64,000 bases of DNA, taken from Bryocella elongata. Its GTDB lineage: Bacteria > Acidobacteriota > Terriglobia > Terriglobales > Acidobacteriaceae. The stretch spans positions 496,001-560,000 of the forward strand of contig NZ_FNVA01000001.1 in assembly GCF_900108185.1 (NCBI RefSeq), in the 5' to 3' direction. Below, piece by piece: positions 6,679-9,326 of the stretch. Position numbers and translations under genes: made by a program. The notes under the pieces are model-generated. The model searched no databases. It had not been told where the DNA came from and worked only from the letters and a program-made list of their open reading frames with translations. The stretch's first letter is position 1, and each line of letters starts with the position of its first letter.

Positions 6679-8133
6679 ATGTACCGCAACCTCCGCAGTC
6701 TCGTTCCCGCCCTCGCGCTCAGCCTTCTTCCCGCGATGTTCGCCCAAGCTCAGGCTCCGATGAAGCCTTCCGTGACGGGCGCAGTCCCGCCGAAGACCTG
6801 GGTCGACAAAGATACCGGCCACCGTGTGTGGCGACTCACCGATGAGCCTGGTTCGTCGGGCTTCTACTTCAATGTGAATGCCTACACGCCGGACCTGAAG
6901 ACGATGGTCTACACGGCGCCGGACGGCATTCATGGCTACGATCTTGCGACGCATAAGGCATGGCTGATCGTGCCGAATCCTCCGCGGCCGGCGCCCGGTC
7001 ATGATGGCGATCCGATCGCACAGGGGTATGACTTCCGCTTTGGCAATGTGCATGCGATCATCGCCGGGCGCGTGACGAACTCGGTGTTTTACTCGCAGGC
7101 CGACCCGGCGACGCGCACGGTGACGCTGTATAAAGCGGACGTCTATACGAAGAAGGTGACGCGGCTGTGCGATCTTCCCAAGGGCATGAGCGTGGCGACG
7201 ATCAATGCCGACGAGACGCTGGGCGCCGGCACCATGAATGACAAGCAGGACACCTCGCAGGATTACGGCGCGCAGCGGCGGAATCCCGCGGGGCAGAGCG
7301 GGCCTCTGGTGCAGCCGCTGAACAAGGGCGAGATGATGGAGCAGCGGCTGGCGGCGCGGATTCCGCTGACGCTCTACACGATCGAGCTGACGACAGGGAA
7401 GCTGCATCCGCTGCTGCATTCGACTGACTGGGTCAATCATCTGCTGTTCTCGCCCACGGATCCCACGCTGCTGATGTACTGCCACGAAGGTCCATGGCAG
7501 AAGGTCGACCGCATCTGGATGATCCATACGGATGCGACGCACAACACGCTCATCCACAAGCGCCGCATCGCGATGGAGATTGCGGGGCATGAGTTCTGGG
7601 GCCTCGACGGCAAGACCATCTGGTATGACTGGCAGCCGATCAAGGGGCAGGACTTTTATCTGGCGGGTTATGACCTCGCGACGGGCAAGCGCACGGCGTT
7701 CCACATGGATCGCAATGACTGGTCGATCCACTTCAACCTGACGAAGGACCTCGACGTCTTTACCGGCGACGGTGGCGATGTGGGGCAGGTGGCGAAGGCT
7801 CCAGATGGAGAGTGGATCGAGCTCTTCCATCCACACACGCTGAACACGACCGGGGCTCTGAACGATCCGGACTTCTTCCAGCCGGGGTACTTTACGCCGG
7901 AGCACCTGGTGAACATGAAGTGGCACGACTACCACCTGGAGCCGAATGTACGCTTCTCGCCGGACAAGTCGCTGGTGATCTTCACCAGCAATATGTTTGG
8001 GCCGGCGTATGTGATTGCGGTGGAGACGGCAAAGGCTACCGATGTGAAGCCGGGCGAGCTGATTTCGACGCCGGAGCTGGCGTCGAAGTACAACCCGAAG
8101 GAGCCGACGGACACGCACGCGATCGCAAAGTAG
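6679..8133 (+). CDS. secreted oligogalacturonate lyase (PL22)
   Basis: Splits unsaturated or saturated digalacturonate from pectin breakdown by beta-elimination. A signal peptide (LVPALALSLLPAMFAQAQA) leads into a seven-bladed propeller. Family hallmarks are visible: DKDTGHRVWRLTDEPGSS at the start, CHEGPW, GHEFWGLDGKTIWYDWQ in the middle, and a C-terminal KWHDYHLEPNVRFSPD that carries metal-binding histidines. ATG 6679 follows AGGAG; upstream codons in the open frame are not needed. The 484-residue length is somewhat longer than cytoplasmic PL22 enzymes, consistent with export. With the esterase at 16926 it suggests pectin use. Confidence 0.85.
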   Translation: MYRNLRSLVPALALSLLPAMFAQAQAPMKPSVTGAVPPKTWVDKDTGHRVWRLTDEPGSSGFYFNVNAYTPDLKTMVYTAPDGIHGYDLATHKAWLIVPNPPRPAPGHDGDPIAQGYDFRFGNVHAIIAGRVTNSVFYSQADPATRTVTLYKADVYTKKVTRLCDLPKGMSVATINADETLGAGTMNDKQDTSQDYGAQRRNPAGQSGPLVQPLNKGEMMEQRLAARIPLTLYTIELTTGKLHPLLHSTDWVNHLLFSPTDPTLLMYCHEGPWQKVDRIWMIHTDATHNTLIHKRRIAMEIAGHEFWGLDGKTIWYDWQPIKGQDFYLAGYDLATGKRTAFHMDRNDWSIHFNLTKDLDVFTGDGGDVGQVAKAPDGEWIELFHPHTLNTTGALNDPDFFQPGYFTPEHLVNMKWHDYHLEPNVRFSPDKSLVIFTSNMFGPAYVIAVETAKATDVKPGELISTPELASKYNPKEPTDTHAIAK

Positions 8134-8158: not shown

Positions 8159-8198
8159 AGACACGTAACGCGACGCAGCTGCGTCGCGTTACGTGTCT
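8159..8198. promoter_or_regulatory. 40-bp perfect palindrome between the lyase and agmatine deiminase genes
   Basis: Each arm is 20 bases (8159-8178 and 8179-8198) with no spacer; the left arm begins AGACACGTAACGCGACGCAG. It lies 25 bp after the lyase stop and 18 bp before the deiminase start. No T run follows on either strand, so it is not a standard intrinsic terminator. It could be a cruciform, a dyad operator, or a repeat element. Confidence 0.75.
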
Positions 8199-8216: not shown

Positions 8217-9326
8217 ATGTGTGAGCCGAACGTAAATCGCTATCGCATGCCTGCCGAATGGGCGCCGCACTCTGCCACGTGGATCGCGTGGCCGCACAAT
8301 CCCGAGGATTGGCCCAGCAAATTTCAACCCATCCCCTGGGTCTATTGCGAGATCGTGCGGCATCTGTCCCGAGTTGAGGACGTTCACATTCTTGTGAATG
8401 ATGAGGCTGCGGAGAAGCGGGCTACAAACATGCTGCGGCGACAGGGTGCGAATCTTGCGCGGCTCCACTTCCACACCTGGCGCACCGATCGCGTGTGGCT
8501 GCGTGACTCAGGGCCGATCTTTGTGAAGAAGTGCGCTGAGGGCTCGGTGAAGCAGATCCTTCGCGACGCTCAGGATGACAAAGGCGAGGTCGCGCTGACG
8601 AACTGGAAGTTCAACGCATGGGCGAAGTATGACAACTGGCGCAACGACAATCTGATCCCAGGCCACGTTGAAAAGCTGTACGGTATGAAGGCGTTTGAGC
8701 CCAAGGTGACACTCGCCGATGGGACGGAGCATCGTTTGGTGCTGGAGGGCGGCTCGATCGACACCAATGGTGCGGGCGTGATGCTCACGACCGAAGAGTG
8801 TCTGCTGAGCGAGGTGCAACAGCGTAACCCGGGCGTCAGCAAGGGGCAGCTTGAGGCTGCGTTCGCGGAGTATCTTGGCATCGAGAAGGTGATCTGGCTC
8901 AACCGAGGCTGCGCAGGGGATGACACGCACGGCCACGTCGACGACATCTCGCGCTTCGTGGGTGAGAACACGATTCTGACCGCGGTGGAGAGCAATACGG
9001 CGGATGAGAATCATCTGCCTTTGGCCGAGAACCTCGAACGTCTCCATGAGGCGCGCAATCTCGAGGGCAAGGCATTCGAAGTGAAGACGCTGCCGATGCC
9101 CGCCCCCGTCGTCTTTGAGCAGCAGAGGCTGCCGGCAAGCTACGCCAACTTCTACGTTGCGAATGGCTTGGTGCTGGTGCCGACCTTCAACGATCCGAAT
9201 GATCGCATCGCGCTGAACACGATTGCGGAATGCTTCCCGGATCGCGTCGTGACAGGGATTCATTGCACGGACTTCATCTGGGGTCTGGGAGCTCTGCATT
9301 GCATGACACAGCAGCAGCCGGCGTAG
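8217..9326 (+). CDS. aguA: agmatine deiminase
   Basis: Converts agmatine to N-carbamoylputrescine and ammonia, linking pdaD (2858) and aguB (3510). Family motifs: MPAEWAPHSATWIAWPHN at residues 11-28, WLRDSGP (94-100), DDTHGHVDDISRF, and the nucleophile Cys362 in LGALHCMTQQ at the end. The length (369 residues) is slightly above normal because residues about 111-124 (KQILRDAQDDKGE region) are extra and coded by a dispersed repeat. The start is ambiguous: at ATG 8217 the AAGGA motif abuts the codon, while ATG 8247 (MPAEW) matches the usual N-terminus but has no clear ribosome binding site. Confidence 0.92.
   Translation: MCEPNVNRYRMPAEWAPHSATWIAWPHNPEDWPSKFQPIPWVYCEIVRHLSRVEDVHILVNDEAAEKRATNMLRRQGANLARLHFHTWRTDRVWLRDSGPIFVKKCAEGSVKQILRDAQDDKGEVALTNWKFNAWAKYDNWRNDNLIPGHVEKLYGMKAFEPKVTLADGTEHRLVLEGGSIDTNGAGVMLTTEECLLSEVQQRNPGVSKGQLEAAFAEYLGIEKVIWLNRGCAGDDTHGHVDDISRFVGENTILTAVESNTADENHLPLAENLERLHEARNLEGKAFEVKTLPMPAPVVFEQQRLPASYANFYVANGLVLVPTFNDPNDRIALNTIAECFPDRVVTGIHCTDFIWGLGALHCMTQQQPA
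8552..8580 (+). repeat. in-frame GCAG...GACA palindromic repeat copy inside aguA
   Basis: GCAG, then stem ATCCT (8556-8560), 11-base loop, stem AGGAT (8572-8576), then GACA. Read on the opposite strand it gives the peptide ILSVAKDL, the translated signature I know from short dispersed repeats in many bacterial genomes. In the gene's own frame it adds about 13 residues between the conserved DSGPIF and VALTNWKFNAW blocks. Confidence 0.65.

Follow-up and report, generated by a model that had tools for sequence, protein, structure and literature searches.

Introduction

That a palindromic repeat can become part of a protein is already known, from the in-frame REPs of Di Nocera et al. 2013 and from the Rickettsia palindromic elements. 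As far as the accessible text of the former article goes, CGTC and GTAG REPs are mostly intergenic and some of them lie in frame in open reading frames (PMC3733652). In-frame REPs are frequent there in DNA-repair and RNA-related genes, and the intragenic targets include UvrA, UvrD, DNA ligase, a photoreactivating enzyme, RNA helicases and tRNA synthetases (PMC3733652). The same text describes CGTC REPs with a stem of 8-9 bp, a loop of 4-5 nt and an unpaired tail that is mostly CCA; the CGTC tag is often TGTC, and a CCTC variant also occurs (PMC3733652). In the sections available, CGTC repeats are described as not associated with transposase genes and are assigned to five named phyla, Acidobacteria not being among them, and the acidobacterial tyrosine transposases that are named, including that of Granulicella mallensis, are classed with those flanked by long TIRs and not with REPs (PMC3733652). 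Granulicella aggregans is listed with many REP-like sequences in the available part of another study (PMC12306157). Rickettsia palindromic elements are described, in the accessible text, as elements of about 150 bp that have entered unrelated genes in frame, adding a peptide to the product (PMC10969869).

Here we describe a shorter repeat in a stretch of acidobacterial DNA of 64,000 nt (the window). A sequence-only reading of the window had claimed that a dispersed repeat adds protein sequence to an agmatine deiminase, which the alignment of homologues and a structure model now support. What was then one case is now one of 25 in the genus.

Results

The gene at 8217-9326 of the forward strand encodes an agmatine deiminase-like protein of 369 amino acids (PAD_porph family), based on profile and PDB matches. 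The product matched PF04371 above the cut-off and over the full profile (383.1 bits, residues 10-368, profile positions 1-321 of 321). The NCBIfam equivalog TIGR03380 (244.1 bits, cut-off 381.8) and a second NCBIfam agmatine deiminase model (251.6 bits, cut-off 483) both scored below their cut-offs, and agmatine deiminase-like is therefore a safer name than the agmatine deiminase of the first reading, of which the family assignment stands. Chlorobium 1xkn was the closest PDB entry both by sequence and by fold. Cys362 (codon 9300-9302, forward strand), which we take to be the catalytic residue, was invariant in an alignment of 30 sequences; this and the full-length PF04371 match fit an otherwise intact enzyme. 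The gene is still under constraint, with dN of 0.10-0.14 and dS of at least 1.48 in seven comparisons, in two of which dS was saturated. Between the upstream open reading frame, which ends at 8133, and this gene there is a perfect 40-nt palindrome at 8159-8198 (AGACACGTAACGCGACGCAG and its complement).

A copy of a dispersed repeat, AAGCAG-ATCCTTCGCGACGCTCAGGATGAC-AA, was located at 8550-8581 of the forward strand, where it encodes K112-D121 (KQILRDAQDD). Its 24-nt core (8556-8579, forward strand) was found to be an imperfect palindrome by pattern search and folding, and contains a variable loop codon, GAC (Asp117), at 8565-8567 of the same strand. The core was present once in the window within 3 mismatches, and 100 shuffled versions of the window gave no match to its pattern, by which a chance match to ATCCTTCGCGACGCTCAGGATGAC was rejected. 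In the whole genome 12 copies were found at up to 3 mismatches, while a reversed control pattern gave no match. The window copy agrees with the genome-wide pattern at each fixed position and has the family flanks on both sides. The ends of the repeat were set by flank positions -6 to -1 (conserved in 68-96% of 180 copies), +24 (68%) and +25 (74%); as the AAGCAG and AA flanks recur beyond the searched core, the repeat covers about 8550-8581 or residues K112-D121, and its conserved stretch is about 32-34 nt in the 180 copies. The insert had earlier been placed at about residues 111-124, a span that does contain the repeat and is too wide. The repeat is in frame in the 369-residue open reading frame, which is intact across the site. 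Its reverse strand reads VILSVAKDL, as the peptide ILSVAKDL recognised from the sequence had indicated.

Folding of the window copy gave 5 bp, a 2x2 mismatch, 2 bp and a 3-nt loop, with no more stability than shuffled sequences (z 0.00 and 0.11). Another shape was obtained when two further copies were folded as DNA, and with RNA rules the shape of the window copy was found in 6 of the 12 copies of this genome. The hairpin first proposed thus holds as a foldable imperfect palindrome, but a weak one, and a stable hairpin as the explanation of the insert was unsupported.

Next to the repeat, the protein has a probably older loop extension (KCAEGSV, residues 105-111, 8529-8549 of the forward strand). 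The congener G005 has KYAEGSVK and no repeat, the same site reading KKYAEGSVK-NAASE in G005 and KKCAEGSVK-QILRDAQDDKGE in the window. As G005 carries the extension without the repeat, the loop was probably longer already when the repeat arrived, judging from this sequence comparison. Two further deiminase homologues (L117 and L151) have AEGSVK or ANGSVK in the loop and no repeat, resembling the window and G005.

For the site as a whole we aligned 85 sequences: the window protein, the best 80 of 167 relatives and four congeners. The repeat was present in the window sequence only, both by exact pattern and by eye, and a conserved ancestral insert was rejected for the aligned homologues. All the 84 homologues are acidobacterial by their records or by kinship, two of them carrying other names (L108, L144), and 1xkn aligned with a 12-residue gap at 108-119; the occurrence of the same insert in distant homologues, which would have refuted the first reading, was not seen in these sequences. 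Loop length as counted ranged from 7 to 26 residues and was 8 residues in 45 of the 85 sequences, the AEGSVK extension of L117 falling outside the counted columns. In the alignment the window gene shows a net gain of 21 nt relative to G005 and of 24 nt relative to G022, less than the length of the repeat (about 32 nt). With congeners at a dS of about 1.5 as the nearest strains for comparison, both the date of the event and its breakpoints are uncertain. An AlphaFold model built on 30 sequences had a mean pLDDT of 85.5, with a mean of 54 for block 111-120, which was predicted as a low-confidence helix or turn between the conserved strands 101-105 and 125-128. According to the model, the repeat occupies a length-variable turn between these two strands.

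Of 28 genomes of the genus, 18 contain copies within one mismatch; summed over genomes these amount to 222, of which 182 distinct copies were analysed. A copy was called genic from the codon statistics of its flanks and then a Pfam match of the open reading frame. By this procedure 25 of the 182 copies were found in frame within Pfam-matched genes and 148 gave no genic signal; nine candidates lacking a Pfam match had been set aside before the count (L199, L204, L211, L221, L296, L298, L323, L329, L341). Five of the 25 (L226, L236, L307, L314, L349) are weaker cases, as their matches above the curated cut-off all fall on the same side of the repeat; the 20 that remain comprise 12 in frame +0, 6 in the CHPERSEG frame and 2 in the VILSEAKDL frame. 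In the window's genome 5 of 8 copies within one mismatch are genic, in comparison to 20 of 174 analysed elsewhere in the genus (Fisher 0.0014). In G001 none of 24 copies was verified as genic.

The Pfam-matched targets included Ddl, TilS, MnmG, a Der-like GTPase, UvrA, UvrD, MutS2, Pol IV, DNA ligase, RNR, a photolyase-related protein, a class I tRNA synthetase with a Leu-type editing domain, aldehyde dehydrogenase, PIG-L and Lhr helicase, the latter in G014, G015, G016 (twice) and G017. The five genic copies of the window's genome lie in the deiminase-like gene, D-Ala-D-Ala ligase, an ATP-dependent DNA ligase, a GluQRS-like protein (tRNA-synt_1c) and a tandem aldehyde dehydrogenase. When 26 Ddl sequences of congeners (one of them partial) were aligned, none showed the repeat peptide that its Ddl carries. 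In one turn of Lhr the repeat lies in opposite orientations in G014 and G016, and these copies are therefore separate events; in a C-terminal turn of Lhr it is found in G015 and G017 in different frames. TilS and the tandem aldehyde dehydrogenase each have site and frame in common between two genomes, which could be due to common descent, and in Der and MnmG the sites differ. The proteins with an in-frame repeat appear to tolerate an added short peptide.

Some other features were observed in these targets. Two copies in G016 (L257 and L258), about 3 kb apart, apparently belong to a single Lhr gene. The Lhr helicase of G014 (L081) also contains VISTGAQRSGET, presumably from a second dispersed repeat family. 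A GluQRS-like protein of G005 (L384) has another repeat-like peptide, GSVILSGARSADSKDPSG, in the loop where L382 carries the repeat.

The 25 genic copies were distributed unevenly over the reading frames. Two of the six frames of the consensus repeat contain a stop. Fifteen copies were in frame +0 (EKQ-[V/I]LRSAQDD-N), eight in the opposite-strand CHPERSEG frame, two in VILSEAKDL and none in RSFAxLRMT. The hydrophobic frames thus account for 2 of 25 (binomial 1e-5, assuming that the four open frames are equally likely). For six frame +0 copies (L003, L075, L229, L258, L314, L343) the codon statistics favoured the opposite frame, and L333 was scored in the opposite frame only; all seven were assigned to frame +0 because that open reading frame had a Pfam match. 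The opposite-frame open reading frames of L314, L333 and L343, scanned against Pfam, matched no family.

In frame +0 the loop codon was polar in all 15 copies, with Ser in 14 and Asp in the window, whereas the 148 other copies had 13 Ser and 22 polar codons in total (Fisher 1.6e-11). Frame +0 copies with curated domains on both sides were polar in 12 of 12 (Fisher 1.4e-9), and adding the four Pfam-less frame +0 candidates that had been set aside (L204 Cys, L296 Ser, L323 Phe, L341 Tyr) gave 16 of 19 (Fisher 1.7e-9); since the copies are related, all these p-values, and the binomial one for the frames, are too strong and indicate a strong trend rather than exact probabilities. In the CHPERSEG frame, in which the variable base is a third-position base, the Ser-type variant occurred in 1 of 8. 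The polar bias in frame +0 and its absence where the base is in third position suggest filtering at the protein level.

Across the phylum, exact copies were found in 12 of 149 genomes drawn, the window's own included. Outside the genus there were 45 copies in six genomes and one genic case, with a Ser loop, in a LeuRS-like gene (L419). Seven of the eight Ser-loop copies outside the genus fall beyond recognised genes, so a Ser loop alone is no predictor of a genic place; these copies neither contradict the genic pattern nor add much to it. The loci outside the genus L073, L074, L088-L091 and L101 were excluded from the 182. Of these, L101 (G056) is a HemW-like protein (Radical_SAM, HemN_C) that starts with MKKPEEKQEQILRSAQDDS, an N-terminal copy that may precede the true start.

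Y1_Tnp genes were present in 24 of 31 genomes searched, with 61 matches. At the 21 of these loci examined, including all three of the window's genome, about 1.5 kb on each side contained a single repeat copy at up to 4 mismatches (L184, 2 mismatches). A RAYT as the mobiliser was not found at these 21 loci.

Discussion

The explanation that we consider highly probable as a whole is that the repeat is a short palindromic element, dispersed in Granulicella and its relatives, which inserted in a turn of the deiminase-like protein that was already extended and variable in length. The insert would have persisted because it kept the frame, brought no stop and contributed a short polar peptide at a place in the fold that can accommodate additional residues. 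Many other genes would have received the element in the same way, for the most part in one of two reading frames, and selection at the protein level may then have removed hydrophobic frames and loop variants. That the element arrived by transposition and that the insert is neutral is what we infer, as is selection as the cause of the bias in frame and loop codon.

The variable base changes the amino acid in one frame, as a second-position base, and is a third-position base in another, which allows selection on the peptide to be told apart from selection on the hairpin of the DNA. It is possible, if doubtful, that the Ser-type loop subfamily has become adapted to translation, as a selfish repeat with a main reading frame that encodes a benign soluble tag (EKQ-VLRSAQDD-N). 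If so, this subfamily could spread into the coding regions of core genes, from which other variants are removed.

The insert might instead be functional, its peptide or hairpin RNA being used in folding, partner binding or mRNA control and kept by positive selection. This would fit the finding that Lhr, TilS and the tandem aldehyde dehydrogenase carry copies in the same turns across different genomes, and that many of the targets act on nucleic acids. Yet the host proteins are unrelated and are entered in several frames and on both strands, the aligned homologues of the window gene do without the repeat, the model has low confidence at the segment and the hairpin is not unusually stable, and we regard a function as improbable.

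Very improbable, in our judgement, is growth of the loop by local duplication or drift followed by gene conversion from another copy, which would have given it the repeat sequence. Loop length does vary without the repeat, and G005 shares the flanking KKYAEGSVK extension, but the window copy fits the genome-wide pattern at all fixed positions, with family flanks on both sides. Chance resemblance or an assembly error, to which the occurrence of this insert in a single genome could point, is hardly credible given the empty shuffles, the intact frame and the further genes of the genus in which this family occurs in frame.

This free-living soil genus offers a test case for how short repeats turn into protein sequence. 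In the open-access literature six encoded peptides had no hit, and we found no description of the element among the papers listed for its DNA strings or topic; as far as these searches show, what is added to a known phenomenon is the element itself, its occurrence in Acidobacteria and a loop codon that depends on the frame.

Like the CGTC and GTAG REPs, as far as the accessible text describes them, the present repeat is short, palindromic and mostly intergenic, with some copies in frame and a similar list of targets; from this similarity the question arises why such inserts are retained in genes for nucleic-acid enzymes. Its reverse strand starts with TTGTC in the window, in agreement with the common TGTC variant of the CGTC tag, and a T precedes GTC in 68% of 180 copies; GTC itself is found in 99% by construction, as it is part of the search pattern. 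The complementary AT of CGTC REPs at stem positions 1 and 2 is present in the window copy, whereas 61% of copies have G at position 0, which makes their first stem pair A with C. The stem is 5+2 bp with mismatches and a 3-nt loop, in comparison to 8-9 bp and 4-5 nt in CGTC REPs, and the tail is CTGCTT and not mostly CCA. The lack of association with transposase genes agrees with CGTC REPs for Y1_Tnp, in the 21 of 61 matches examined. RAYT-linked REPs are likewise dispersed short imperfect palindromes, and Y1_Tnp genes exist in the genus, but the flanking of a cognate Y1 transposase gene by copies, as in a REPtron, was not seen at the same 21 of 61 matches. Rickettsia palindromic elements, going by the available description and not by sequence, resemble the present repeat in being palindromic, in frame in unrelated genes and peptide-adding, and differ in length (about 150 bp against about 32-34 nt) and phylum. 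The present repeat is an acidobacterial example of such elements, CGTC-like but outside the definition of CGTC REPs.
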